Shown here piece by piece: positions 3,975-38,999 of a DNA stretch of 38,999 nucleotides (positions are counted from its first letter, which is position 1; each line of letters begins with the position of its first letter). The position numbers were made by a program, and so were the translations under genes. The stretch is from Bacteroidota bacterium (GTDB lineage: Bacteria; Bacteroidota; Rhodothermia; Rhodothermales; Bin80), in the NCBI GenBank assembly GCA_028875125.1, contig JAPPGC010000082.1, positions 1-38,999 on the forward strand, written 5' to 3'. The notes under the pieces are model-generated. The model did no database searches. It worked only from the letters and a program-made list of their open reading frames with translations, and was not told the DNA's origin.

Positions 3975-4973
3975 ATGAATAATTTGTCGCAGAACACGCC
4001 TGATACGGACTTGCAAGACCAAGCCTCTACGAGTGTAGATGTGATCCAGACACTTGACCTGACGAAGCGCTACGGAATGCGTGCCAAGAAATCGGTTCTG
4101 GCCGTGGACCGGATCTCTTTCGCCGTAAAAAAGGGCCAGGTATTCGGCTTCCTCGGCCCCAACGGGAGCGGTAAGACAATCACCATCGGGATGCTCGTGG
4201 GCATCATCATGCCAACGGGCGGCAGCTTCCGCTTGTTTGGCAATTCCGATTCCAGGGGGCTCAATGCCGCACGAGCTCGAGTCGGCGCCACGCTGGAAAC
4301 GCCCAACTTCTACCCATACATGAGCGGTCGTGATAATCTGCGCATTGTTGCGGCAATCAAAGGAGTAAATCGGTCCCGCATTGAGGAGTGCCTAGCACTC
4401 GTCGGACTGTCCCGCCGCGCGAAGCACCGGTTCAAGACCTACTCGCAAGGGATGAAGCAGCGGCTAGCGCTCGCGGCTGCCATGTTAAACGACCCCGAAC
4501 TGATTGTTCTTGACGAGCCTTCCAACGGGCTCGATCCACAGGGGATCAGGGAAATCCGCGAGATTATTCACACTCTTGCCAAGCGCGGCAAGACGATATT
4601 CCTGTCGAGTCATCTGCTTGTGGAAGTCGAGCGTACATGTTCCCACGTCGCCATCATTCGCGATGGGCGAATAATTAAGTGGGGTCCGGTGGCGGAGATG
4701 GTGGGAGAAGGGAATGCTGTATTGCTTCGTTCGGAGGATATTGAAGTGCTTGCGGGCGCAATGGAAGCCTATCCAGACGCCACATCGGTCCGCAGGACCG
4801 ACGATGGCATTGTCGTTGCACTGGACTCGGGTGATCTGGCAAACGTGACACGTTATCTCTCGGAGCGAGGAATATACTTGTCCCTGCTGGCACCGCACCA
4901 GCCGAGCTTGGAAGAGGTCTTCATAGACGTAACCGGGGACACCACGGATTCAATGACAGGGCTCGCGGCATGA
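3975..4973 (+). CDS. ABC transporter ATP-binding protein (ABC-2 exporter type)
   Basis: A 332-residue nucleotide-binding subunit. Walker A is GPNGSGKT at residues 61-68, the signature is YSQGMKQRLAL, Walker B is LIVLDEPSNGLDPQG, and the switch histidine is in FLSSHLLVEVE. The C-terminal 90 residues resemble the DUF4162-type tail found on exporters of the BcrA/NatA/CcmA class. It would hydrolyse ATP on the inner face of the cytoplasmic membrane and drive the partner permease. The last codons overlap the permease start by 4 nt (ATGA), so the two are translationally coupled. ATG 3975 is chosen; an in-frame TTG at 3966 would add three residues. Residues 1-25 form a hydrophilic, Asp/Gln/Ser-rich N-terminal extension not needed for the fold. 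The cargo is unknown. Confidence 0.88.
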   Translation: MNNLSQNTPDTDLQDQASTSVDVIQTLDLTKRYGMRAKKSVLAVDRISFAVKKGQVFGFLGPNGSGKTITIGMLVGIIMPTGGSFRLFGNSDSRGLNAARARVGATLETPNFYPYMSGRDNLRIVAAIKGVNRSRIEECLALVGLSRRAKHRFKTYSQGMKQRLALAAAMLNDPELIVLDEPSNGLDPQGIREIREIIHTLAKRGKTIFLSSHLLVEVERTCSHVAIIRDGRIIKWGPVAEMVGEGNAVLLRSEDIEVLAGAMEAYPDATSVRRTDDGIVVALDSGDLANVTRYLSERGIYLSLLAPHQPSLEEVFIDVTGDTTDSMTGLAA

Positions 4974-5797
4974 AGATTCTAACTATTCTTCTGCGAATCG
5001 AATGGCTCAAAGCAGCCAAGCGGCGAATCTTCTGGGTGGCCATCGGTGCGTTCGGCCTGTTCACCGCAATTCGTGCAGTCATAGGGATATACATGGCCAG
5101 TACTATTCCAGATGTGGACTTTACCCTGCCGGAAAGATGGCCGGATATTTTGGGCGCTGTATCCGGGTTCGGACCGCTCTTTACCGCTATTCTGATGATC
5201 CTGCTCTTCGCCCCAGAATTCTCATGGCGCACTGCACGCCAGAACATAATTGACGGGCTCAGCAAGGAGCAGTTCTTCACGGGAAAGGTCATCTTGCTTG
5301 CCGGACTCGTCCTACTCTTCATGGCAGTGGCCGTGCTGATCGGCGTCAGTAGTACGATATTTAGCCCCGGCGAGAGTGGCTCCGCTATTTTCCGGCCTAA
5401 TGATCTCAGCTACATGGGCGGAATTGCCCTTGGCATGCTGATCTATGGAAGCTTCGGCCTGGTGCTCTCGACATACCTCCGCTCTTCAGGATCGGCGTTA
5501 GGTGTCCTGTTCCTGTACATTATTGTCGAAGGAATTATCCCCTTGCTGACGCTCCGAATGGGAAGCAGGACTTTACGCGACGCGATGGAGTTTCTTCCGT
5601 TTAAGGTGGTCGAGAACCTTGGGGACAATCTGGCCTACTATCCCGCAGAGCTGTTGGAGATGAACCCTATGCGCCCTGAACTAGATCTTGTACCTCTCGG
5701 GAGCCCTGATATTGGGATTCACGTGATCGTTGCGCTGGCCTACATTGTGGTACTTCTCGGACTCTCGCTTCTGAATCTGCGTAAGCGAGACCTGTGA
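4970..5797 (+). CDS. ABC-2 type transporter permease
   Basis: A 275-residue integral membrane protein with six predicted hydrophobic segments (about residues 18-42, 58-83, 98-125, 144-168, 174-200 and 245-268). The segment after helix 2, EFSWRTARQNIIDGLSKEQF, is the usual cytoplasmic coupling region of ABC-2 permeases, where the complex meets the ATPase. It ends in a short positively charged tail (RKRDL), placing the C-terminus inside. The start codon overlaps the ATPase stop, so the pair forms a two-gene operon encoding a half-size exporter that would work as a dimer. Relatives export lantibiotics or sodium, or help with gliding or cytochrome assembly. Nothing in the neighbourhood identifies the substrate here. 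Confidence 0.85.
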   Translation: MKILTILLRIEWLKAAKRRIFWVAIGAFGLFTAIRAVIGIYMASTIPDVDFTLPERWPDILGAVSGFGPLFTAILMILLFAPEFSWRTARQNIIDGLSKEQFFTGKVILLAGLVLLFMAVAVLIGVSSTIFSPGESGSAIFRPNDLSYMGGIALGMLIYGSFGLVLSTYLRSSGSALGVLFLYIIVEGIIPLLTLRMGSRTLRDAMEFLPFKVVENLGDNLAYYPAELLEMNPMRPELDLVPLGSPDIGIHVIVALAYIVVLLGLSLLNLRKRDL

Positions 5798-6376
5798 CGC
5801 AATTCCTGGACATTGTTCGTGTTTGCACGGGTCGGCGGGGAAGTGGGAATTATGCTCTAGCAAAGCACTCTTGCTTCCTTTCTTGAGAGCGGGGTTTGCC
5901 GTTCCCAAGTACACCCAGTGCGACATCCTTACCAATGGATGAAGGTCCGCACGAAAGGTGGACCTTGCCCTCCCCTTGCACAAGATGAGGGAACAGCTTC
6001 CAGAACTCGCTCGAGATTTCGTAAACCACTCCTGAATACACTATAGGACATCAATAAAAAGGTGGAGAAACGACATTCCATCAATGTGGCCGAATTCACG
6101 CATCCCGATTCGAGGACGGCTTGAGTGGAGCGATTACTTCCGCAGGAGTTCCAATGAATCGGCTTGCTAGGATTTTGCTAGAGTCTGGATTCTCACAGCG
6201 GACATCAAAGATTGCCTGCCCAATGACAATACGGCGTACGCTCAGTACAGACAGTAAGCGACCTCGATGAACTGGATGTGCATTACGAAATGCTTACATT
6301 GCAGCACCAGAATCCGAAATGGAAGATCTTCAATTTTTTCGACTAACTTCCTGTCACGGTAGATCATCACGCAAAC
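5798..6376. other. intergenic region with possible decayed coding sequence
   Basis: About 580 nt between the permease and the symporter. Two plus-strand stretches read like protein but are short and in different frames: about 6070-6270, roughly 70 codons ending in SKRPR, and about 6240-6346, ending NPKWKIFNFFD then stop. Neither has a start with context or a recognisable family. They may be remnants of a lost gene or chance. No terminator was identified after the permease. Confidence 0.3.
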
Positions 6377-11057: not shown

Positions 11058-12455
11058 GTGTGTGAAGGCATAGAAATCGCCTGTCTCCCGGCAACAACCC
11101 TCCAAAGGGCATTGCGGGAACGCAGACTGTCTCCCGTCGAGCTTGCCCGTGCCTGCCTCAATGTATATGAGAAACTCAATCCTGCACTCAATGCAATCGT
11201 AACCCTCAATGAGCGGGTGTTAGAGGAAGCACGCGCACTCGAAACCAAGCCTCCCAAAGGCCTCCTGTACGGGCTTCCCGTGGGTATCAAGGACACGACA
11301 GACACGCGCGAGTTACGCACAACGTACGGCTCACCGGCTTATCGTGATCATGTTCCTGATCGGGACGCTGAAATTGTTGCCCGACTTAAAGCTGCCGGTG
11401 CACTCATCCTAGGAAAGACCAATACTCCCGCATTTGCAGTTGGAGGTGAGACCACCAATGCGGTCTTCGGGGCAACCCGCAATCCATGGGACATTACACG
11501 GTCCCCAGGAGGCTCTACTGGAGGCGGGGCGGTAGCGGTCGCAACCGGCATGGTTGCCCTTGCAGATGGTACAGATCTGGGTGGTTCTCTCCGAATGCCC
11601 GCATCATTCTGTGGCATCGTAGGTTTGCGCCCCTCGCCAGGAATCGTTCCCGAGGATTCAGTGAGCTTTTTGCGGGATCGCTTGTCCGTTGCTGGAGGAC
11701 TTGGCCGAACTGCGGGGGATGTCGGGCTCTTCATGCGTGCAGTTGCCGGGCCTTACGACGCAAGACCACTACCATATCCTGCCCATCATCCTGGTTTTGT
11801 ACTACCTGAATTGAGAGCGAACATGCGACTTGGGTACTGTGATCACCTCACCGACTTTGAACCTGCGCCCATCGTTGCCGCTACTTGCCGCTCAGCTATC
11901 AACTCACTCAAATCACGGAGTATTTCAGTTAAATCCGTGGACCTAAGCCTAACAGATGCTCCTCGCGCATTTGCCGTTCTTCGTGCACACCATCTGCTGG
12001 CTGTTCACAGAAACAGATTGAACCAACCTGAGGCAGCAGGTGAACACCTGACCCAAAACCTCAGCGAAGCACAAAGTTACAGCGCACTGAATTTAGCCGA
12101 CGCGGAGCTTATTGTTGATAGAATTTTGCGGACCTTCCGAAGGGTTTTCCAGGAAGTGGACTTTTTGCTGACGCCTACAACCACCGTTCTCCCGTTCAGG
12201 CTAGTGGATGGCTATCCTCGCCGGATCGAAAACACAGTATTATCTACCTACTACGACTGGTTTGCACCAACCTCCGTACTTTCGCTTACCGGCTTACCGG
12301 TCGCAAGTGTCCCCTGCGGACTGAGCCCTGAGGGGCTCCCCGTCGGTATACAGATAGTCGGCAAACCCTGTCAGGAGGCAGCAGTACTCGCTTTGGCAAC
12401 CCTAATGCAGGAACGATGCCCGATAAGCTTGCCGCCTATTCTTCAGCAGCTCTAG
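11058..12455 (+). CDS. amidase (amidase-signature family)
   Basis: A 465-residue hydrolase. The Ser-cisSer-Lys triad is complete: Lys78 in GIKDT, cis-Ser153 in GGSTGGG, and Ser177 in DLGGSLR. The long Gly/Ser-rich core and C-terminal PVGIQIVG match the family, which cleaves amide bonds in the cytosol (acylamides, or glutamine in the GatA subfamily). It lacks a recognisable neighbouring gatB/gatC, so a general amidase is more likely than GatA. The start is GTG 11058, 3 nt after ricT, implying co-transcription. Its last 20 nt overlap, tail to tail, the 3' end of the EF-G-like gene on the other strand. The substrate cannot be told from sequence. Confidence 0.87.
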   Translation: MCEGIEIACLPATTLQRALRERRLSPVELARACLNVYEKLNPALNAIVTLNERVLEEARALETKPPKGLLYGLPVGIKDTTDTRELRTTYGSPAYRDHVPDRDAEIVARLKAAGALILGKTNTPAFAVGGETTNAVFGATRNPWDITRSPGGSTGGGAVAVATGMVALADGTDLGGSLRMPASFCGIVGLRPSPGIVPEDSVSFLRDRLSVAGGLGRTAGDVGLFMRAVAGPYDARPLPYPAHHPGFVLPELRANMRLGYCDHLTDFEPAPIVAATCRSAINSLKSRSISVKSVDLSLTDAPRAFAVLRAHHLLAVHRNRLNQPEAAGEHLTQNLSEAQSYSALNLADAELIVDRILRTFRRVFQEVDFLLTPTTTVLPFRLVDGYPRRIENTVLSTYYDWFAPTSVLSLTGLPVASVPCGLSPEGLPVGIQIVGKPCQEAAVLALATLMQERCPISLPPILQQL

Positions 12456-14559
12456 CTGCATCGGCTACCACCTGTTCCTGCACATTCCTCGGCATGGCCT
12501 GATAATGACTGAAGCGAGCACTGTGAATACCTCGCCCCTGAGTCATTGACCGGACTCGCGTAGAATACTGATATAGCTCCGCCTCAGGTACCTGCGCAAG
12601 AATGATCTGCATACTTCCCCCAGCTTCCATACCCTTGATTGTTGCACGACGTCCATTCAGGTCTCCCATAATATCTCCCGTGTACGCATCGGGAATCGTT
12701 ACCCTCACATCATGAATGGGCTCCAGGATCACGGGCTTGGCTTTTCGGAACGAGTCACGGAACCCGAAGCGAGCGGCAGTACGAAAGGCATTCTCGTTTG
12801 AGTCAACCGAATGCATACCTCCGTCATAAATCACGAAGCGAACATCTCCGACCGGGTAACCGGCTACCGGCCCCTTCTGCATGCCTTCCAGCACCCCTTT
12901 CTGAATGGCGCCAAAAAATCTTCGCATATCAATCACACCGCCAACAATGCCGTCAATGAACTCAATAGTGGATCCCCAGCCCGTCGTAGACTGTACTGTG
13001 TTGCGCACTGAGATATCTGGACGCTTCTTGAATTCGCCTTCCAGAGGCTCAATCAGGACCGAAATATCTGCGAACTGCCCTGCCCCTCCTGTTTGCTTCT
13101 TGTGCCTATAGGACGCCCGTGCTTCGGTCGTCACTGTTTCCCGATATGCTACGCGTGGCCGACTAAAGTCTACCTCAACATTTACCTTGGATTTGAGCCT
13201 ATACTGGGCCACCTTCAAGTGCATAGATCCCTGTCCCCCCAAGCTTATCTGACTCAAATGTGGCTCGTGTACGACCACAAGTGAGGGATCTTCTGCTGTG
13301 ATTTGATGCAAACCCTGGGCCAGCTTATCCTCTTCACCTTCCGCTTTCGGTCGGATTGCCTCCCTATAACGCGGTTCAGGGAAAGGGATTGGTTTCACTA
13401 GAACGCGATGACCCTTTTTGCGAAGCGTATTGTTGGTGTGGGTATCGCGTAGCTTGACCAGCGCTCCCAGATCACCTGCCACCATACGCGGCACAGTCTC
13501 CCTATCTCTTCCGCGTAGTACGTAGAGTTGTCCTAGACGCTCATTAGTCCCGGAACTCCCATTTTCCAGATCCATTCCGGGTTCAATCGCACCACTGCAC
13601 ACACGGAAGAAAGAATAATCACCAACATGATGTTCGGCCATCGTACGATAAACAAATACTACGGGACCAGCATCAACGTCAGCATCAAGAGCCTCGCCAT
13701 TCTCCACTGGAACTGAGGGTGCAGCCAGCGGTGAGGGCAGTACATTGTTTATAAAACTCATCAAACGCGCAGTACCCGTGTTTGCAGCGGCGGCCGTACA
13801 GAAAACCGGATACAATGAACGTGATAGCATCGCCTCCCTAAGTCCGGAACGCATATCTTCCTCACTCAACATCTCTTCTTCGAGATATTTGTCCATTAAC
13901 TCCTCATCGTTAACCGCAATGTCCTCTGCCAATGCATTATGCAACTCTTCGGCACGCTCGAGAAACTCTTCGGGAATCTCACTGACGGTTGGTGGACCTT
14001 GGACGCCCGGATCGAAAGTTAGCTGCTTCATGACCAATACATCAATTAGTACATTCGGCGCACCCCCGGGAAACTGCACCACGGTTACTCCCACACCGAA
14101 ACGATCCCTCATTTGTTCAATCAATGATTCCACATCAGCCTGTGCACGATCAATCTGGTTGATCACGAACATAGCAGGTTTCTCATTTTCAGCAGCTGCA
14201 CTCCAGGCTAGCTCTGTACCAACTTCAACTCCCTCCTGGGCATTCATTACAAATATGGCAGTATCCGCCACACGTACAGCAGCAACTACCTCTCCTACAA
14301 AATCAGGGTATCCCGGCGTATCAATGATGTTGATCTTGTGCCCCTCCCATTCCGCATGCAGAAGGGATGAAAAGATGGACATCTGGCGCTCTTTTTCGCT
14401 TGGCTGGTAGTCACTTACCGTTGACCCCTCCGTAATTGTCCCCAGACGTCGCGTTTTGTTACTGACATATAGCATAGATTCAGACAAAGTGGTCTTTCCA
14501 CTCCCCTGATGACCTACGAGAACAACATTTCGGATGTGATCCGTACTATAGACTCTCAT
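12436..14559 (-). CDS. elongation factor G-like GTPase (EF-G2/FusA2 type)
   Basis: A 707-residue translational GTPase with the five-domain EF-G layout. G1 is GHQGSGKT at residues 16-23, and G3 is DTPGYPDF at 80-87. G4 reads NQID (134-137) instead of the standard NKxD, and switch I reads ERQMSI instead of RGITI. These changes match the divergent EF-G-like paralogues (T. thermophilus EF-G-2 / mycobacterial FusA2 type) rather than the main factor, so I give no symbol. Domain IV includes a GxGSTIEF segment and domain V ends with a GRGxxSARFSHY run. It may act in ribosome translocation or rescue; the exact role is unresolved. Its 3' end overlaps that of the amidase by 20 nt. It diverges from accD over 151 nt. 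Confidence 0.85.
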   Translation of the reverse strand: MRVYSTDHIRNVVLVGHQGSGKTTLSESMLYVSNKTRRLGTITEGSTVSDYQPSEKERQMSIFSSLLHAEWEGHKINIIDTPGYPDFVGEVVAAVRVADTAIFVMNAQEGVEVGTELAWSAAAENEKPAMFVINQIDRAQADVESLIEQMRDRFGVGVTVVQFPGGAPNVLIDVLVMKQLTFDPGVQGPPTVSEIPEEFLERAEELHNALAEDIAVNDEELMDKYLEEEMLSEEDMRSGLREAMLSRSLYPVFCTAAAANTGTARLMSFINNVLPSPLAAPSVPVENGEALDADVDAGPVVFVYRTMAEHHVGDYSFFRVCSGAIEPGMDLENGSSGTNERLGQLYVLRGRDRETVPRMVAGDLGALVKLRDTHTNNTLRKKGHRVLVKPIPFPEPRYREAIRPKAEGEEDKLAQGLHQITAEDPSLVVVHEPHLSQISLGGQGSMHLKVAQYRLKSKVNVEVDFSRPRVAYRETVTTEARASYRHKKQTGGAGQFADISVLIEPLEGEFKKRPDISVRNTVQSTTGWGSTIEFIDGIVGGVIDMRRFFGAIQKGVLEGMQKGPVAGYPVGDVRFVIYDGGMHSVDSNENAFRTAARFGFRDSFRKAKPVILEPIHDVRVTIPDAYTGDIMGDLNGRRATIKGMEAGGSMQIILAQVPEAELYQYSTRVRSMTQGRGIHSARFSHYQAMPRNVQEQVVADAARAAEE

Positions 14560-29994: not shown

Positions 29995-31281
29995 ATGATC
30001 TGGAACAAATTAAGCAAGCATGCTGACTTGGGTCTGCTCATATTTCGAGTGGGTTTTGGACTTGGCATGTTGATCTTCCACGGCTGGGGTAAACTAACGG
30101 GCGGTCCTGAGGCGTGGGCTAATGTTGGTGGAGCTGTGGAGATTTTCGGTATTGGTTTTGGCCACACATTCTTTGGATTCCTTGCAGCCCTGGCTGAGTC
30201 AGTTGGTGCTATATGTATTGTGCTTGGACTATTCTACCGCCCGGCATTGACTGCTCTTGGTTTGACCATGCTCGTGGCAACCCTGATGCACATTACCACT
30301 GGACAGGGAAGCCCTGCACATGCCATCAAAAACCTGTCCATTTGTGCAGGTATGCTGTTTGTTGGCCCCGGTAAATACAGCCTGGATTGTGGCCTCGGAC
30401 GAAAAGCTACAGGATCTGCCGCAGTATTGGCACTGGCCTTATTCCTCGTTCCCGGTAGCGCTATTGCGCAACACAGCACCGTGCATGACGAACTGAAGCT
30501 GCAGAGCGATATCCTGGATTCAGAACGAAAATACGCAGTCTATCTGCCACCGGACTACCATACAAGTGAGCGCAGTTATCCGGTTCTTTACTTGCTGCAT
30601 GGTGCAGGAGATGATCAGACTGGCTGGATTCAGTTTGGTGAAGTCCGTCATATCGCGGACAAAGCAATCCGAGCAGGGAAGGCAACGCCAATGGTGATCG
30701 TAATGCCCGACGCGAATACCGGAGTTCGTGGTTATTTCAATGACGTGAGCAACACTTGGCGGTACGAAGACTTCTTTTTTGAGGAGCTGATGCCCCATGT
30801 AGAAGAGCGATTCCGAATCAAGTCCCAGAAACGCTATCGCGCAGTTGCTGGACTCTCAATGGGCGGTGGCGGCTCTTTCATGTACGCGCTTCACCGACCT
30901 GACCTCTTCTCCTCCGCTGCACCACTGAGTGCCTGGGTTGGACCCAGTTCGGTAGAGCAATACAAGAATACTATGGAACGATGGGGAAATGACATATCAA
31001 CTGTTTCAGACGAGGAGATTGAATCCTATGTGAAACGGCACAATGCAGTAGAACTGATCCGGTCGCTGCCGGCAGAGGATATCGGATCAGTCCGCTGGTT
31101 CATAGACTGCGGTGACGACGATTTCCTGTATGAAGGCAACTCGCTGGCACACATTGAAATGCGGAAACGCGAAATCCCACATGAATTCCGCATCCGGGAT
31201 GGCGGACACACATGGACCTACTGGCGTGATAGCCTGCCCACAGTGCTTCACTTTGTTTCACAGGCATTCCATCAATACTAA
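29995..31281 (+). CDS. DoxX-domain / alpha-beta hydrolase esterase fusion protein
   Basis: A 428-residue single frame joining two families. Residues 10-135 are a DoxX-type membrane domain with four helices (RVGFGLGMLIFHGWGKLTGG, then LAESVGAICIVLGLF). A further hydrophobic stretch, residues 139-158, ends in GSAIAQ and resembles either a fifth helix or a former signal peptide. Residues about 165-428 are a putative esterase (PF00756-like): nucleophile Ser288 in GLSMG, acid Asp373-376 and His405 in GGHTW. The hydrolase would lie outside the cytoplasmic membrane, tethered by DoxX. No frameshift or internal start that separates them is evident. It leads an operon with the DUF5916 and cytochrome-Vgb genes (13- and 17-nt gaps). 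The substrate is unknown. Confidence 0.82.
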   Translation: MIWNKLSKHADLGLLIFRVGFGLGMLIFHGWGKLTGGPEAWANVGGAVEIFGIGFGHTFFGFLAALAESVGAICIVLGLFYRPALTALGLTMLVATLMHITTGQGSPAHAIKNLSICAGMLFVGPGKYSLDCGLGRKATGSAAVLALALFLVPGSAIAQHSTVHDELKLQSDILDSERKYAVYLPPDYHTSERSYPVLYLLHGAGDDQTGWIQFGEVRHIADKAIRAGKATPMVIVMPDANTGVRGYFNDVSNTWRYEDFFFEELMPHVEERFRIKSQKRYRAVAGLSMGGGGSFMYALHRPDLFSSAAPLSAWVGPSSVEQYKNTMERWGNDISTVSDEEIESYVKRHNAVELIRSLPAEDIGSVRWFIDCGDDDFLYEGNSLAHIEMRKREIPHEFRIRDGGHTWTYWRDSLPTVLHFVSQAFHQY

Positions 31282-31294
31282 TAGGACTAAGGCT

Positions 31295-33553
31295 ATGCCT
31301 CAGCCGGTAAAATGGCGTGCCTTACTGCGTGCCGCAATTGTGGTCTGCGCAGTGTTTCCATTGATGTCAGCGAGGTCCCAATCTCAATCTGTTGAGACCG
31401 ACTCCCCCTTTATTCCAACAAGGCTTACCGGTCCTATCGAAATAGATGGATTTATCAACGATTCGGCCTGGGATGAGATTGTCCCACTGCCTCTGGTCAT
31501 GTACGAACCTATATTCAGAGGGGCTCCGTCTGAGCGAACGGATATTCGTATTGCCTATGACGATCAGTATCTGTACTTGGGAGGAAATCTGTATGACAGT
31601 AATCCGGATGGAATTCGAGCTAATTCTATGTACCGGGACTTGTATAGTGGTGATGACACCGTAAGTCTCATATTGGATACTTTCAATGATCGTCAAAATG
31701 GACTGTGGTTCTTTACCAACCCAAATGGGATTCGTGCCGATATGGCCATTTCCAATGATTTGGAGGGAAGTGTAGGAAGCCCCTTTGGAACTGTCATTAA
31801 TTCGAGCTGGAATACATTTTGGGATGTAGCTACACAGGTGACAGATATGGGATGGTCCGTTGAAATGCGGATACCCTTCACCAGTCTGGGTTTCCAATCC
31901 GAAGAGGGAGTAGTTGAGATGGGCTTTTCGGTGACACGTCAGATCGCAAGGAAAAACGAAACCCAAGTTTTTCCTGCAATACCGCCGAATTGGAACATGT
32001 CCTTCGCTAAGCCTAGCCAACTTGGCCGTATCCAATTGCGCGACGTACGCGCAGGGCGCCCGTTATATATCACGCCCTATGTATCAGGCGGAGGCGCTAC
32101 GGAAGCCAATCTCCTGGAAGACGAATCAAAGTATGAACACAAATCAAACTTGACCGGAGATATAGGAGGTGATGTGAAGTACAATATCACCAACAACCTG
32201 ACACTCGACTTAACTGTCAATACCGACTTTGCACAAGCGGAGGCAGATGACGAGCAGGTCAACCTGACTCGTTTTTCCCTTTTCTTCCCTGAAAAGCGCA
32301 GATTCTTTCAGGAGCGTGCCGGAATCTTTGATTTCCGAACGGCAGGACGGTTCGACAGACTCTTCAATACACGTCAGATTGGCCTATACGAGGGAGAAAC
32401 TGTGCCCATATTTGGAGGGGCTCGCCTTGTGGGTCGTATTGGTAGCTGGGATGTTGGGGCTATTAACATGCAAACCGCTGCTGCTCATGGGAATCCATCC
32501 GAAAATTTTGGCGTCTATCGTCTACGTAAACAGGTATTCAATCCCAATTCATACGTGGGTAGCATGGTCACCACAAGGATTGCATCAAATGGATACTGGA
32601 ATGCTGTGTACGGCCTTGATAGCCAGATTAAGGTAGGCAGCCGAGAGTACCTTGAATTCAAGTGGGCGCAAGTGTTTGACGAAGCCGTTCCCAATATCAC
32701 GCTTCGAGACAACAGCTATGCGCGTGCACGTATTGAGCGGCGAACTGAGATCGGATTTGCATACTCCCTGTCATCGACTTGGGGAGGGCCCAATTTTGAA
32801 CCCGGTATGGGGTTTGTCTCACGTACTGGCTTCATCCAGCCATTCTTCACACTCAGTTACGGCTGGTTTGCTAGCGAAGCTTCCAAGGTTCTGTCTATGC
32901 GTCCACGTCTCTTGCTTGCACAATTCCGGCGTGACTCGGATGGCAGCCTCGAAACTGGCGCTTATTGGTTCAGCTGGTTCGTTTCGATGAAATCTGGAGC
33001 ATTTCATACATTTGAGGTGCAAGCACGCACGGAAGACCTACATGAAACCGTAGAATTCCCCGAGGACACTGAAGTGCCTATCGGCAAATACAGTTTCTAT
33101 AATCTCGGATGGGAGTATATGGCACATAGTGGACGTCTCTTTCGTGTGGATGGGTCTGCGACGGTCGGAAATTTTTACGACGGTACCAATATTGAAATTC
33201 AGGCAGAGCCCACATGGAACCTCTCGCGTCATCTAGAGCTTGGGGCAACCTATCAGTTTAATCGTGTACGATTTCCAGACAGGGGGCAGGCCTTTTTTGT
33301 GCATGTCGCTCGTATTCGGACACAGATTGGTTTTTCGACACAAGCCAGTATTAATGCCTTCCTGCAGTACAATACTGCATCTGATGTGGTCTCAGCAAAT
33401 GTTCGATTTCGCTACAACTTCCGCGAAGGAAATGACCTCTGGATAGTCTATAATGAAGGACGCAACACCGACCGTCTGAGTAGTGATCCAGAATTGCCAT
33501 TCCTGGACGGTCGAAGAGTACTCATGAAGTACACCTACACATTTATCCGTTAA
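31295..33553 (+). CDS. DUF5916 outer-membrane protein with CBM9-like domain
   Basis: A 752-residue exported protein. A signal peptide (LLRAAIVVCAVFPLMSARSQS) ends near residue 30. Residues about 46-230 form a family-9 carbohydrate-binding-like domain (GPIEIDGFINDSAWDEI, YDDQYLYLGGNLYDS). The rest is a DUF5916 beta-rich region with LTLDLTVNTDFAQAEADDEQ and FFPEKRRFFQE, the most conserved part of this family, and a C-terminus ending in aromatic YTYTFIR, as in outer-membrane barrels. The family is common in Bacteroidota and its function is unknown. ATG 31295 is chosen because it begins the signal peptide; the frame is open to 31112 inside the upstream gene. It starts 13 nt after the DoxX-esterase gene and ends 17 nt before the cytochrome gene. 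Confidence 0.85.
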   Translation: MPQPVKWRALLRAAIVVCAVFPLMSARSQSQSVETDSPFIPTRLTGPIEIDGFINDSAWDEIVPLPLVMYEPIFRGAPSERTDIRIAYDDQYLYLGGNLYDSNPDGIRANSMYRDLYSGDDTVSLILDTFNDRQNGLWFFTNPNGIRADMAISNDLEGSVGSPFGTVINSSWNTFWDVATQVTDMGWSVEMRIPFTSLGFQSEEGVVEMGFSVTRQIARKNETQVFPAIPPNWNMSFAKPSQLGRIQLRDVRAGRPLYITPYVSGGGATEANLLEDESKYEHKSNLTGDIGGDVKYNITNNLTLDLTVNTDFAQAEADDEQVNLTRFSLFFPEKRRFFQERAGIFDFRTAGRFDRLFNTRQIGLYEGETVPIFGGARLVGRIGSWDVGAINMQTAAAHGNPSENFGVYRLRKQVFNPNSYVGSMVTTRIASNGYWNAVYGLDSQIKVGSREYLEFKWAQVFDEAVPNITLRDNSYARARIERRTEIGFAYSLSSTWGGPNFEPGMGFVSRTGFIQPFFTLSYGWFASEASKVLSMRPRLLLAQFRRDSDGSLETGAYWFSWFVSMKSGAFHTFEVQARTEDLHETVEFPEDTEVPIGKYSFYNLGWEYMAHSGRLFRVDGSATVGNFYDGTNIEIQAEPTWNLSRHLELGATYQFNRVRFPDRGQAFFVHVARIRTQIGFSTQASINAFLQYNTASDVVSANVRFRYNFREGNDLWIVYNEGRNTDRLSSDPELPFLDGRRVLMKYTYTFIR

Positions 33554-33570
33554 CCCCTTCGAGAGCAACG

Positions 33571-34806
33571 ATGAGCACCTCCTTGATCTATTCCTTACGT
33601 CTCACGCTAAGCTCATTACTGCTCGTGCTGATGAGTACAGCATCAATTTCTGCCCAGAACCGACAAAGTACTCCACTTCCAGAGGGACATGCAAAAGTAC
33701 TTGTAGAGCAGGCATGCACATCCTGCCACACGATCAGTGCTATCACTAGATCGGGGTTTGATGGCGTAGAAATGTGGCGGTCTGTGCAGGAGTCGATGAT
33801 TCAGTTACCCGAATCAGATGCCATCAGTATCGCCGAATACCTGGCTGAACATTTCCCTGCACGCGATGATCGGAAGCCAACCCTGGTTGATGGACCAGTT
33901 GAAATAGATATTCAGGAATGGACTGTGCCTACGCTGGGACAGCGCTCTCGGGATCCAATTGAAGCACCGGATGGATCCATTTGGTGGACTGGAATGTGGG
34001 CAAGCCTGGTAGGACATCTTGATCCTGTAACTGGCAACATGAAAGAATATCCCCTACCCCCTGAGGCAAGACCTCATAGCATTGTCCCCGATGAGGATGG
34101 CTTTATCTGGTACACCGGAAACAGTAACGGTACAATTGGCAAACTTGACCCGGCAACAGGAGACATTACTGAGTATCCAACCGAAGCAGGGGATCCACAT
34201 ACGGCAGTTTTTCATCCGAATGGTGACCTTTACTTCACTTCCCAGAGAGCGGCAATGCTGGGAAGGCTGAACCCTGTTACTGGAGAGCTCAAAGAAATAC
34301 CGACCGAGCCTCGCCCTTACGGTATCATCGTGGCTCAGGACGAAACTGTATGGATTGCCTACAATGGCACCAACAAACTCGGAGCCATGAATCCAGAATC
34401 AATGGAGGTCCAGTACTATACTGTGTCTGATCCAGATACGCGCATCCGTCGACTAGGTATTGACTCAAAGGGGATTATCTGGTTCGTGAACTCTTCCAAA
34501 GGGCGAATTGGCCGACTTGATCCTGCAACCGGTGAAATCAAGGAATGGGAGTCACCAAGTGGACCACGCTCCCATCCGTATTCTTTGGCTGTGATCAATG
34601 ATAAAATCTGGTACAATGAGTCTGCCATGCGCCCTGATGCTTTGGTTCGTTTCGATCCAGAAACAGAATCTTTCCAGAGCTGGGCTATCCCCAGTGGTGT
34701 GGGAATCATCCGGCATGTATGGGTTACACGCGAAAACAAGCTGCTCATCCACCAGAGCAGTTCCAACCGAATAGGCCTGGTAACCATAAAGGAACTGGCT
34801 AATTAG
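33571..34806 (+). CDS. cytochrome c / Vgb-like beta-propeller fusion protein
   Basis: A 411-residue exported protein. After a signal peptide (about residues 1-29, ending SISAQ) comes a short c-type heme domain with CTSCH at residues 49-53. A candidate Met axial ligand is Met76 in ESMIQLP. From about residue 112 there are repeated units of the virginiamycin-B-lyase (Vgb/streptogramin lyase-like) propeller: GHLDPVTGNMKEYPL, GKLDPATGDITEYPT, GRLNPVTGELKEIPT and GRLDPATGEIKEWES. Such repeats make a seven-bladed sheet that binds ligands. The heme suggests an electron-transfer or sensing role in the periplasm. It is the third gene of the DoxX-esterase operon. Assay-level function cannot be inferred; true Vgb catalytic residues were not checked. 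Confidence 0.82.
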   Translation: MSTSLIYSLRLTLSSLLLVLMSTASISAQNRQSTPLPEGHAKVLVEQACTSCHTISAITRSGFDGVEMWRSVQESMIQLPESDAISIAEYLAEHFPARDDRKPTLVDGPVEIDIQEWTVPTLGQRSRDPIEAPDGSIWWTGMWASLVGHLDPVTGNMKEYPLPPEARPHSIVPDEDGFIWYTGNSNGTIGKLDPATGDITEYPTEAGDPHTAVFHPNGDLYFTSQRAAMLGRLNPVTGELKEIPTEPRPYGIIVAQDETVWIAYNGTNKLGAMNPESMEVQYYTVSDPDTRIRRLGIDSKGIIWFVNSSKGRIGRLDPATGEIKEWESPSGPRSHPYSLAVINDKIWYNESAMRPDALVRFDPETESFQSWAIPSGVGIIRHVWVTRENKLLIHQSSSNRIGLVTIKELAN

Positions 34807-35023: not shown

Positions 35024-37177
35024 ATGAACATGAAACACGGGATCGTAGTATTGACACTTGCGCTGTCTGCGTCCGCTGCAGGACAGGGAATTTGGACGAT
35101 CACGGATGCAGGACACTCTTCAATAGTTACTTCTGTGGCGTTTTCACCGGACGGCACGCTATTTGCCTCTGGGTCAGCGGACAAAACGATTCGCCTGTGG
35201 GAAGTAGCTACAGGAAAGGAGTTACGACGCTTCAAAGAGTCGATACCTTCGTCAATTCTTTCCCTAGCATTTTCACCGAACGGCTCGCAGCTAGCTTCTG
35301 GATCAAGTGGTGGTAGGACCTGTCTGTGGAATGTCGCCAAAGGGCAGGAGGTATGGTGCTTTGAAGGACCCACTAAGGTTTTTTCCGTGGCATTTTCACC
35401 AGACGGTGCGCTGCTGGCTACTGGGATAGATACCAGAGGAGTAGACCATACGATCCGTACATTCATTGTAGCCACAGGGCAGGAGGTGCGACACTTCGGA
35501 GGGAATTCACATACAGTTTATTCCCTAGTATTTTCACCGGACGGAACACAGATTGCCTCTGGATCAAACAACGGGACTCTCAGTCTGTGGGATGTAGCCA
35601 CGGGGCAGGAGGTGCGACGCTTTGAAGGGTATTCAGTTTATATTAGTTCCGTAGTATTTTCACCGGACGGCTCGCTGCTGGCTTCTGGGTCAGGGGATAA
35701 TACGATCCGTCTGTGGGATACGGCCACTGGTCAGGAAGTGCGAATCTTTGAGGAACATACCGGTTCGGTCCTTTCCGTAGTATTTTCGCCGGACGGTACG
35801 CAGCTGGCTTCTGGGTCATATGACAATACGATCCGTCTGTGGGATGTAGCCACAGGACGGGAGGTACGGCGCTTCAAAGGGCATACACATCCTGTTTATT
35901 CCGTGGTGTTTTCACCGGATGGTTCGCAGTTGGTTTCGGGAGCACATGACTGGAGTCTCCGTCTGTGGGATGTAGCGACGGGCCTGGAAGTGCGGCGCAT
36001 CAGAAGCCACACAGCTTGGATTGGTTCCGTAGTTTTTTCTCCCGATGATACGCAGCTGGCTACTGGGTCACATGACAATACAGTCCGTCTGTGGGATGTG
36101 ATCACGGGGCAGGAGGTGCGACGCTTTGAAGGACATACACATCGCGTTCACTCCGTGGCATTTTCACCAGACGGTACACAGCTCGCTTCTGGATCATGGG
36201 ACGATTCCATCCGCCTATGGGATATAGCCACGGGACAGGAGGCGCAGCGCTTTGAAGGACATACTGGTAATGTTACTTCCGTAGCATTTTCACCGGACGG
36301 CACGCAACTGGCTTCGGGGTCAGATGACTGGAGTCTCCGTCTGTGGGATCTTGCCACGGGACAGGAGATACGACGCTTTGTAGGCCACACAGGTAGCGCT
36401 AATTCCGTAGTATTTTCACCGGACGGGACGCTCCTGGCTTCTGGATCAGATGACCGTACTATCCGTCTGTGGGATGTAGCCACCGGACTGGAGACGCGAC
36501 GCTTCGAAGGGCACATAGCTAACGTTAATTCCGTAGTATTTTCTCCAGATGGCACACAGTTGGTCTCTGGATCATGGGACAGTACGATCCGTCTATGGGA
36601 TGTAGCCTTGGGACAGGAAGTGCAGCGCTTTGAAGGGCATGCTGGTAATGTTACTTCCGTAGTATTTTCACCGGACGGTGCGCAGTTGGCCTCTGGATCA
36701 CAGGCTGTTATGATAACATTTCGTAGACACGACAATACGATTCGTCTGTGGGATATAGCCACAGGACGGGAAATAGACCGGCTAGACAGTGAATACCCTG
36801 TTTACTCTATAGCTATTTCCGGGAGTGAACGCTTTATCGCATCGGCTGGAGCAACAGCAATCAGGTTATGGGATGCCAAGGCTACAGCATTGGAAACGGT
36901 GCCCCCCTCAGGTTTAGAGGTCCCAGCAACATTTACGCATTACCCGAATCCCGCGGGAGCATTCACTACAGTCGAATACGCGCTTCCAAAGGCGACTCAA
37001 GTCCAGTTGTCAATCCATGATCTTCTTGGACGCGAGATAGTCAGTATGCTGGATGCGACTCAGGCGGCTGGTTCTCACAGTCTGCAACTGTCCACCCTGC
37101 AGCTTTCGGGAGGGATTTATTTTCTGCGGCTTATCACTGATGACACGCAGGTGACACGACCGCTAGTCGTACGCTGA
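35024..37177 (+). CDS. secreted WD40-repeat protein with type IX secretion sorting domain
   Basis: A 717-residue protein. A signal peptide (MNMKHGIVVLTLALSASAAG) precedes about fourteen WD40 units of some 42 residues, each with FSPDG near the start and RLWDVATGQE at the end. Fourteen units can form two seven-bladed propellers. Units 3 and 13 carry longer inserts, and the last is degenerate. Residues about 634-717 are a T9SS type A sorting domain: FTHYPNPAG, VEYALPKATQVQLSIHDLLG, then GIYFLRL. The product should cross the outer membrane and be surface-attached or released. The ATG has a strong Shine-Dalgarno, GGAGAGGGTGA, 6 nt upstream. It is paralogous to the gene at 38187. The propellers likely bind proteins or glycans; the target is unknown. 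Confidence 0.92.
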   Translation: MNMKHGIVVLTLALSASAAGQGIWTITDAGHSSIVTSVAFSPDGTLFASGSADKTIRLWEVATGKELRRFKESIPSSILSLAFSPNGSQLASGSSGGRTCLWNVAKGQEVWCFEGPTKVFSVAFSPDGALLATGIDTRGVDHTIRTFIVATGQEVRHFGGNSHTVYSLVFSPDGTQIASGSNNGTLSLWDVATGQEVRRFEGYSVYISSVVFSPDGSLLASGSGDNTIRLWDTATGQEVRIFEEHTGSVLSVVFSPDGTQLASGSYDNTIRLWDVATGREVRRFKGHTHPVYSVVFSPDGSQLVSGAHDWSLRLWDVATGLEVRRIRSHTAWIGSVVFSPDDTQLATGSHDNTVRLWDVITGQEVRRFEGHTHRVHSVAFSPDGTQLASGSWDDSIRLWDIATGQEAQRFEGHTGNVTSVAFSPDGTQLASGSDDWSLRLWDLATGQEIRRFVGHTGSANSVVFSPDGTLLASGSDDRTIRLWDVATGLETRRFEGHIANVNSVVFSPDGTQLVSGSWDSTIRLWDVALGQEVQRFEGHAGNVTSVVFSPDGAQLASGSQAVMITFRRHDNTIRLWDIATGREIDRLDSEYPVYSIAISGSERFIASAGATAIRLWDAKATALETVPPSGLEVPATFTHYPNPAGAFTTVEYALPKATQVQLSIHDLLGREIVSMLDATQAAGSHSLQLSTLQLSGGIYFLRLITDDTQVTRPLVVR
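35114..36884 (+). repeat. tandem WD40-coding repeat array in the first WD40 gene
   Basis: About fourteen tandem units with a usual period of 126 nt (42 codons). The block that encodes VVFSPDG (consensus GTAGTATTTTCACCGGACGG) and the one that encodes IRLWDVATG recur with few changes. Units have diverged more from one another than in the second gene, which has several nearly identical units. Confidence 0.85.
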
Positions 37178-38075
37178 TCTAGAATAGGAGCATCGAACGT
37201 CCTTGGAATGAATTGAGTCTGTAGCTGGAACCCGTTGAGTTCTTCGGTTTAATGGAGAGGCACAACATCGCAGCCTGTTCCATGAAAAAACGATTTTCTT
37301 TTCTCGTTGAGCACGACGAGCTTCAAGCCGCCCACACATCTTGAGAATCTCAATTATCCTCATCCGAACGTTCTCGCAACGTGACAGTGCCTGTAGCTCC
37401 ATCAGTTCTGCCGGAATACTATCCCGATTATAGGAATCAATCTGGGTGTCGGCAATCGGAACGTGCCCAAGTTGAACTGCGAATCGTGAGTCTTGCGCAG
37501 AACAGAGGAAGAGAAATACCCCGATTCGTACCCTCTGTCATGGCGAACACTAGAATCAGAAATGGATTGGAAGGGCATTACCCTCTGGTGTGAATGGCCG
37601 AGGGCAGTCTCCGTATAAACAGCACCAACCGTCGGCGCATACCTAAATCCCCTCAGTTTCCTGATCTACCCCCTTGACAGCAACTGCAAAAGGTTATCCC
37701 ATCCCTCACGGACAAATACAAAACCGCATGGAGTAGGATCAAGTAGTTCCCACAAAAACTGATATAGCTCCTGGGCTATTTCTGCGGACAATTGTACAAC
37801 TCAGACAATCAGCCCGTGCAGCAGCGTGATTCGCAGCAACCTGATCCCAATTGACCACATGCCAGAACGCGGCAATATAGTCGGGACGATGATTCTGGTA
37901 ATTCAGGCAGTTCGCATGCTCCCAAACGTCCAACCCGACGATGGACGTATAGGAGAACGAAACGAACATTTGCGTTCATGCTCGGAGATAGATCGGGAGC
38001 CCGAGGCGAGAAATAGTGGAGTTTTAGGGCCAAATTTGCTACGTTAAGTAAGGAGTCTGGGCGACTAGTTGGGCT
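37178..38075. other. non-coding stretch with gene debris between the WD40 genes
   Basis: About 900 nt without an intact gene. A superoxide dismutase remnant is on the minus strand (37814-37942). Another minus-strand stretch, 37666-37801, reads like a protein C-terminus ([16 protein letters not shown], then GWDNLLQLLSRG and a stop) but matches no family I know. Plus-strand frames at 37381-37593 are uninformative. No IS end, inverted repeat or terminator was recognised. Confidence 0.5.
37814..37942 (-). pseudogene. superoxide dismutase (Fe/Mn) C-terminal remnant
   Basis: The minus-strand frame gives [10 protein letters not shown], then [23 protein letters not shown]. This is the C-terminal signature of Fe/Mn superoxide dismutases, in which the Asp and His of D-x-WEH bind the metal and [13 protein letters not shown] are conserved. 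The usual AYY after WEH reads ANC. Upstream, on the minus strand, the same frame soon meets stops and no longer resembles the family, and the downstream tail is foreign. Only about 40 residues of a roughly 200-residue enzyme remain, so this is a dead fragment, perhaps cut off when the second WD40 gene region was inserted. Confidence 0.8.
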
Positions 38076-38186
38076 AGGGGTACGTCTGGGCGATCTGGAG
38101 CGTTCAAAGCTTGGGGTGAGGTATCGTAAGCTGCGATGCCGGATGTCTGATAAGACATTGTATACATCCAGAGAGGGTGACGAACC
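38076..38186 (+). repeat. 5' leader shared by the two WD40 genes, copy 2
   Basis: AGGGGTACGTCTGGGCGA, GTGAGGTATCGTAAG (38116-38130) and the Shine-Dalgarno GAGAGGGTGA (38171-38180) appear in the same order as before the first WD40 gene, with CGAACCATGAACATGAAA in common across the start. The block GTCTGGGCGA also occurs twice within 40 nt (38055 and 38085). The leader duplicated together with the gene. Confidence 0.75.
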
Positions 38187-38999
38187 ATGAACATGAAATA
38201 CGGGATCGTTGCGTTAACGTTTGCGCTGTCTGTGCCCGCTGCGGGGCAGAGAATTTGGACGATAGTAGAGACGGGACACACTTCGTCTGTTCGTTCCGTG
38301 GCATTTTCACCGGACGGCATACTACTAGCTTCTATATCATCTGACAATTCGATCCGTCTGTGGAATGTGGCTACGGGGCGGCTGCTACGGCTTCTTAAAG
38401 AGCCCAGAACACTTGAAGGTTATTCTGTGGCATTTTCACCGGACGGCACGCAGCTGGGTTCTGGAGCAAGCTACGGTTTGATTCTTCTGTGGGATGTGGC
38501 CACGGCGAAGGTGGTGCGGCGCTTTGGAGGGCATTCAAGTTATGCTAATTCCGTGGCATTTTCACCGGACGGTACGCAACTGGCTTCTGGAGAAAGCGGC
38601 CGTTTTATCCGTCTGTGGAATGTGGCCACGGGGCAGGAAGTGCGACGCTTTGAAGGACACGCACGTGGTGTTAATTCCGTGGCATTTTCACCGGACGCTA
38701 CGCAGCTGGCTTCGGGGTCACGGGACTTAACGATCCGTCTGTGGCGTGTAGCAACAGGACAGGAGCTGCGGCGCTTTGAAGGGCATACGAATTGGGTCTA
38801 TTCAGTAGTATTTTCACGGGACGGCGCACAGTTGGCTTCGGGGTCACTTGATGGTACGATCCGTCTTTGGGATGTAGCCACGGGACAGCAGGTGCGGCGC
38901 TTTGAAGGACACGCACGTGGTGTTAATTCCGTGGCATTTTCACCGGACGGCGCACAGTTGGCTTCGGGGTCACTTGATGGTACGATCCGTCTTTGGGAT
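38187..38999 (+). CDS. secreted WD40-repeat protein, 3' end beyond the window
   Basis: An open frame of 271 codons from ATG 38187 to the window end without a stop, hence a partial gene. The N-terminal MNMKYGIVALTFALSVPAAG is a signal peptide closely similar to that of the first WD40 protein. Six complete or nearly complete WD40 units follow, with the same FSPDG and RLWDVATG landmarks. The nucleotide period is 126 nt. Unit 1 is followed by one unit with a 1-codon length difference. Later units are almost identical at the DNA level. A T9SS domain beyond the window is likely by analogy but is not seen. The Shine-Dalgarno GAGAGGGTGA lies 6 nt upstream of the ATG. Confidence 0.88.
   Translation, partial: MNMKYGIVALTFALSVPAAGQRIWTIVETGHTSSVRSVAFSPDGILLASISSDNSIRLWNVATGRLLRLLKEPRTLEGYSVAFSPDGTQLGSGASYGLILLWDVATAKVVRRFGGHSSYANSVAFSPDGTQLASGESGRFIRLWNVATGQEVRRFEGHARGVNSVAFSPDATQLASGSRDLTIRLWRVATGQELRRFEGHTNWVYSVVFSRDGAQLASGSLDGTIRLWDVATGQQVRRFEGHARGVNSVAFSPDGAQLASGSLDGTIRLWD
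38301..38999 (+). repeat. recently homogenised 126-nt WD40 repeats
   Basis: The block GCATTTTCACCGGACGG (or variants) starts at 38301, 38430, 38556, 38682, 38808 and 38934: a spacing of 129, then 126 nt. Segments 38646-38697 and 38898-38949 are identical over 52 nt. Segments 38819-38873 and 38945-38999 are identical over 55 nt, up to the window edge. Identity at third codon positions points to recent duplication or gene conversion. Confidence 0.85.

Follow-up and report, generated by a model that had tools for sequence, protein, structure and literature searches.

A candidate operon of one marine Rhodothermales family encoding a DoxX-esterase precursor, a CBM9-DUF5916 barrel and a heme-motif propeller protein

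Three closely spaced genes of a Bacteroidota genome, all seemingly destined for the cell envelope, raise the question of whether they work as one system or merely sit side by side. We addressed it in a window of 38,999 nucleotides, i.e. the whole stretch of contig JAPPGC010000082.1 that was analysed. The source genome (3.3 Mb, 129 contigs, completeness of 98 %) has Rhodothermales/Rhodothermaceae MAGs as its near relatives. Genes, folds, conservation, gene order and the features of the gene 1 joint were computed; co-transcription, cleavage, enzyme activities and a shared pathway are what we infer. The literature searched yielded no description of DUF5916, of a DoxX-esterase fusion or of the gene 3 protein, hereafter cyt-Vgb. 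The features of the locus are as follows.

29995..31281, + strand: gene 1, fusion of DoxX, internal signal peptide and esterase, 428 aa (ORF list, Pfam)
29995..30393, + strand: DoxX part of gene 1, residues 1-133, hydrophobic inner-membrane segments (PF07681 at residues 13-98; hydropathy peaks)
30394..30468, + strand: joint of gene 1, residues 134-158, signal-peptide-like, predicted cut Ala158/Gln159 (-1/-3 residues, dN/dS)
30469..31278, + strand: esterase of gene 1, residues 159-428, feruloyl-esterase-like alpha/beta hydrolase (PF00756; 7xrt/7xrv)
31295..33553, + strand: gene 2, CBM9-like domain and DUF5916 barrel, 752 aa (Pfam, predicted model)
31403..32050, + strand: CBM9-fold domain of gene 2, residues 37-252 (7nwn match; PF06452)
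32063..33544, + strand: predicted beta barrel of gene 2, residues 257-750 (model; nearest barrels at Z 15-17)
33571..34806, + strand: gene 3, c-heme motif and Vgb-fold propeller (cyt-Vgb), 411 aa (ORF, Pfam, model)
33715..33729, + strand: heme-attachment motif CTSCH of cyt-Vgb, residues 49-53 (77-sequence alignment)
33898..34794, + strand: seven-bladed propeller of cyt-Vgb, residues 110-408 (2z2o_D)

The sequence-only reading of this locus had described three genes lying 13 and 17 nt apart, all coding for exported or membrane products. The ORF coordinates agree with this layout (gaps at 31282-31294 and 33554-33570), the start of gene 2 being taken as the ATG at 31295 and the mechanical ORF beginning earlier, at 31112; the assignment of all three products to the membrane or to export was likewise upheld. 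A promoter and terminator scan of the window returned site counts at or below those of shuffled sequence, and within the two gaps it detected no promoter-like or terminator-like site. Further downstream, 35024-38999 holds a 717 aa WD40-repeat protein whose C-terminal tail resembles a type IX sorting domain; a second, similar reading frame behind it continues past the end of the window.

All available genomes of the family (n = 16) were searched for the three genes; they are draft assemblies, in which some absences may represent gaps, and orthologue counts vary with the E-value cut-offs chosen. Conservation of the gene order in relatives had been proposed as a check on the sequence-only reading, and scattering together with separate transcripts as the outcome that would speak against it. 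A conserved order and scattering were each observed in part. A tight trio was found in eight of the 16 genomes (G000, G004, G008, G009, G010, G012, G014 and G015), spanning five genera, and a loose one in G001, where the order is retained with ~0.3 kb between genes 1 and 2 and where gene 2 is split between frames. In the remaining seven genomes, the trio is disrupted or short of a member: the three genes share a contig over ~19 and ~23 kb with other genes in between (G007 and G011); esterase and cyt-Vgb lie on the same contig (G003 and G005) or on separate contigs (G002, whose cyt-Vgb contains a stop), and no close DUF5916 gene was found in these three genomes; only the fusion is present (G006); or cyt-Vgb and DUF5916 are on separate contigs (G013). 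Esterase and cyt-Vgb orthologues each occur in 15 of the 16 genomes, the former missing in G013 (89 % complete) and the latter in G006 (98 % complete). Since half of the family retains the order, at distances between about -4 (genes overlapping by 4 nt) and about 57 nt, this order is more than chance, and its conservation makes a single transcript likely. Beside cyt-Vgb, four genomes (G002, G003, G005 and G007) carry a cassette (L067 2661-7911, L065, L064 and L180) in which two repeated genes and one divergent gene, all of unknown kind, accompany a DUF547 gene; it coincides with a broken trio.

The surroundings of the trio were also compared. The esterase adjoins TatD/DnaK in five genomes of the window's genus and a methylmalonyl-CoA mutase gene in four or five from other genera. 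Part of the right-hand flank (SOD and the genes after it) is common to genomes of the genus and to others, and plain inheritance may therefore account for the linkage. The idea of a mobile block was rejected as strong evidence, only one flank being different and the right-hand one partly shared.

To follow the genes beyond the family, cyt-Vgb loci were sought in 84,980 species genomes, and 80 of the 128 relatives were taken. Of these 80, 12 came from Rhodothermales (eight of them with the trio); the other 68 were mostly from Gammaproteobacteria, with some from Acidobacteria and Gemmatimonadetes. None of these 68 had an esterase beside cyt-Vgb, and a distant DUF5916 protein (23-32 % identity) lay within the stretch at seven of them. 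No steady neighbour of cyt-Vgb was found in the other phyla, the commonest ones being unrelated housekeeping-type genes. Among the order's 98 genomes from other families, the esterase was retrieved in 13 (E <= 1e-60), cyt-Vgb in two (E <= 1e-90) and both in one; cyt-Vgb may thus have entered this family from elsewhere. Outside the family the trio itself was not seen, the 68 loci from other groups being devoid of the esterase. Two of the loci (L101 and L157) belong to MAG records titled Klebsiella pneumoniae with a cyt-Vgb gene otherwise known from marine-type MAGs, and these titles may be wrong.

These distributions bear on the proposal that the three genes form a single system, which our data do not bear out: the trio is broken or incomplete in seven family genomes, and the esterase and cyt-Vgb hardly ever occur together outside the family (0/68 loci and 1/98 genomes). 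A single system is thus only possible, and an obligate three-part machine is not likely; a lineage-specific operon is likely. A plausible alternative, to which we give somewhat less than an even chance, is that the genes are neighbours by inheritance only and serve unrelated processes, whether or not they share a transcript. In some relatives, each gene has been lost or relocated on its own, no partner constantly accompanies cyt-Vgb in other phyla, and the DUF5916 paralogues of the same genome have varied neighbours, as observed at the five paralogue loci inspected (L173-L177) among eight matches to the gene 2 protein, itself included. Such an explanation sits less easily with a trio that stays tight across five genera while insertions in the family fall mostly elsewhere (in eight genomes), or with a cyt-Vgb relic found in a genome of a second family (G048). 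This relic (L068 7513-7692) consists of the last 59 residues at 83 % identity and lies directly upstream of an unfused esterase.

We then considered what each gene encodes. In gene 1, the esterase (PF00756, E 1.8e-36) has as best solved relatives two structures entitled 'Ferulic acid esterase', 7xrt (E 1.6e-88) and 7xrv (E 4e-88). The alignment spans the whole mature part (residues 3-271 of 271), and the nucleophile motif GLSMG is aligned with 7xrt, its serine being replaced by alanine in 7xrv; unlike gene 1, both relatives are devoid of a DoxX fusion. The domain shows the esterase fold family and the nucleophile motif expected of feruloyl/CE1-type enzymes, and unfused orthologues with 61-69 % identity occur across the phylum (394-genome sample). 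On account of these relatives, the enzyme is predicted to act on feruloyl esters.

The DoxX part (PF07681, E 2.8e-10, 41.1 bits versus a cut-off of 23.6) is joined to this esterase in a full-length fusion in 11 of the 16 family genomes, i.e. ten of genus g1 and one of g2, all independently assembled MAGs. The fusion was detected in no further genome among 114 of the order, and of 394 genomes sampled from a larger set across the phylum, seven had it, all g1. In G012, from another genus, a separate DoxX gene ending in its own stop (L058 6999-7409) was found upstream of the unfused esterase and on the same strand, and DoxX and esterase were therefore likely neighbours before fusing. The two are separated there by ~5.5 kb including AAA-ATPase genes; the insert (L058 8128-12685), with two AAA-ATPase-type genes, may be a defence-type island. 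Of the free DoxX genes, the two examined that are closest to the fused one (L194 and L195) both have a DsbD-type neighbour, and the second also lies beside a redoxin gene and a gene with a Dioxygenase_C match.

The sequence-only reading had called this product a tethered hydrolase, a description that the joint does not favour. A hydrophobic segment (residues 140-158 by hydropathy) ends in small residues of signal-peptidase type: in 11/11 fusions, alanine stands at -1, before glutamine, and A, S, T or G occupies -3. A like site lies at the same place in 7/7 of the unfused orthologues listed, one of them with glycine at -1. Additionally, dN/dS between the window and G004, G008 and G009 amounts to 0.02-0.15 for DoxX, 0.41-1.07 for the joint (based on 25 codons) and 0.03-0.06 for the esterase. 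A joint that evolves loosely between two constrained domains is the pattern expected of a cleaved signal peptide. The joint thus looks like the former signal peptide of the esterase; these sequences agree best with a precursor that signal peptidase I cleaves, cleavage being predicted, and the hydrolase is probably not tethered. That the esterase instead remains attached to the inner membrane through DoxX appears rather unlikely to us: the single continuous frame in 11 genomes and the hydrophobicity of residues 140-158 would suit an anchor, whereas the cleavage-type site in every fusion and the relaxed evolution of the joint would not. There is a parallel for a cleaved precursor in FbcH, the cytochrome b/c1 precursor of Bradyrhizobium, a single chain from which a membrane protein and an exported protein arise by cleavage at an internal signal sequence. 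The one-chain layout is alike in gene 1; the proteins are unrelated, and here cleavage is predicted only.

Gene 2 was expected to encode an outer-membrane protein with a carbohydrate-binding domain, a description supported by a barrel of outer-membrane type and a CBM9 fold. Pfam assigns CBM9_1 (PF06452, E 9.5e-7) and DUF5916 (PF19313, E 1.8e-17; 63.8 bits versus a cut-off of 22.6, covering only part of the profile). In the predicted model (26 sequences, pLDDT 83.7, pTM 0.81), the N-terminal domain has the CBM9 fold (7nwn, Z 20.0, rmsd 2.8, 176 aligned residues), and a search for a solved CBM9 sequence to which its sugar-binding residues could be aligned gave none. The remainder forms a barrel of outer-membrane type, for which 24 strands of at least 9 residues were counted from the strand list of the model; an insert near residues 313-330 is of low confidence. 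This fold (Z 15-17) is shared by chain B of the Mtr complex 6r2q (Z 16.6), by FimD (15.9) among the FimD/PapC ushers and by TonB receptors (about 15), from all of which gene 2 differs by the CBM9 domain in front. As a specific relative, 6r2q chain B came top, but ushers and TonB receptors follow within about 1-2 Z units and none was singled out.

For gene 3, the claim of a heme-motif protein with a propeller is borne out. The predicted model (32 sequences, pLDDT 89.0) combines a small helical domain with a propeller that matches the Vgb_lyase family (PF24684, E 4.3e-37) and superimposes on Vgb (2z2o_D, Z 37.2, rmsd 2.0, 288 aligned residues, 23 % identity). The alignment holds 77 sequences; four of the 80 loci (L091, L122, L147 and L148) lack a complete ORF in the cyt-Vgb cluster and stand outside the 77, and L136 was omitted from the structure alignment on account of a stop. 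The Pfam cytochrome models gave no match in the window protein and sub-threshold ones in homologues. The heme assignment is made because CTSCH at 49-53 is kept as a C..CH-type motif in 77/77, and Cys49, Cys52, His53 and Met76 are each present in 77/77. In two cyt-Vgb proteins, those of L072 (gene at 4628-5863) and L059 (gene at 11428-12699), the motif is longer, the cysteines being three residues apart instead of two (CTSSCH, CTASCH). The heme domain of one homologue, L090, has a weak match, below cut-off (4.2e-5), to SorB, the sulfite dehydrogenase cytochrome subunit; SorB is a separate subunit, whereas the heme domain of cyt-Vgb is fused to the propeller.

Virginiamycin B lyase (2z2o, 2qc5) shares the seven-bladed fold of cyt-Vgb, which differs in its N-terminal heme domain, its mapped catalytic positions and its set of invariant residues. 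The column that we mapped, from the range aligned to 2z2o_D, to Glu284, a catalytic position of Vgb, is S396 (S in 68 and T in 9 of 77). By the same mapping, His270, named as catalytic in the title of structure 2z2p, falls on H382 (H 35, N 39 and R 3 of 77). That cyt-Vgb would be a cytochrome-bearing streptogramin (virginiamycin B) lyase is thus most improbable: the propeller fold is the same and the Vgb profile matches, but the NCBIfam virginiamycin B lyase models give 87.5 and 79.9 bits for cut-offs of 600, and neither mapped catalytic column is kept. According to PMC8916777, substrate and Mg are bound in blades 6 and 7 of Vgb and a related propeller enzyme works through a different site, so that a change of chemistry on the Vgb fold has precedent.

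The residues invariant in 77/77 include H169, N184, D208, H210, Q225, Y250, N265, R293, Y337, E350, R381 and H394, among others, with at least one polar residue per blade (e.g. H169, H210, Y250, R293, Y337 and R381). Because of this conserved polar ring, we infer that cyt-Vgb is a cytochrome-linked oxidoreductase. A heme-based ligand sensor devoid of enzyme activity, which the pairing of heme and propeller might suggest, has little probability: the protein lacks a signalling domain, no steady regulatory neighbour appears among the loci listed, and its conserved polar pocket would rather suit an active site. We propose only tentatively, and with more doubt than confidence, that the oxidoreductase is a new cytochrome-linked propeller type, distributed over Gammaproteobacteria, Acidobacteria, Gemmatimonadetes and Rhodothermales, with an active site to which each blade contributes at least one invariant polar residue, and in this family working beside an esterase freed from a self-exporting DoxX precursor.

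Taken together, the reading that we favour, at about even odds as a whole, is a probable operon limited to one marine Rhodothermales family and making three cell-envelope proteins in the following manner. Gene 1 would yield a precursor in which the old signal peptide of a feruloyl-esterase-type hydrolase links this enzyme to DoxX; signal peptidase I would most likely cut behind Ala158, so that DoxX stays in the inner membrane and the esterase is free in the periplasm. The product of gene 2 would be a large barrel in the outer membrane, bearing a CBM9-fold domain and probably serving as a pore for entry or capture. Gene 3 would add a protein of the periplasm that combines a c-type heme domain with a Vgb-fold propeller, an oxidoreductase that may send electrons to its own heme. 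Their common theme would likely be to take up and process ester-linked glycan material, perhaps aromatic, at the envelope.

Were the joint cut, gene 1 would represent a recent fusion that has lost a stop codon while its export signal kept functioning, with two proteins arising from a single gene and the succession of events known (DoxX and esterase apart in G012, fused in two genera). Should cyt-Vgb prove to be an oxidoreductase, the name of an antibiotic-resistance enzyme would be wrong for 77 sequences from several phyla, and a conserved chemistry of marine bacteria would await discovery.
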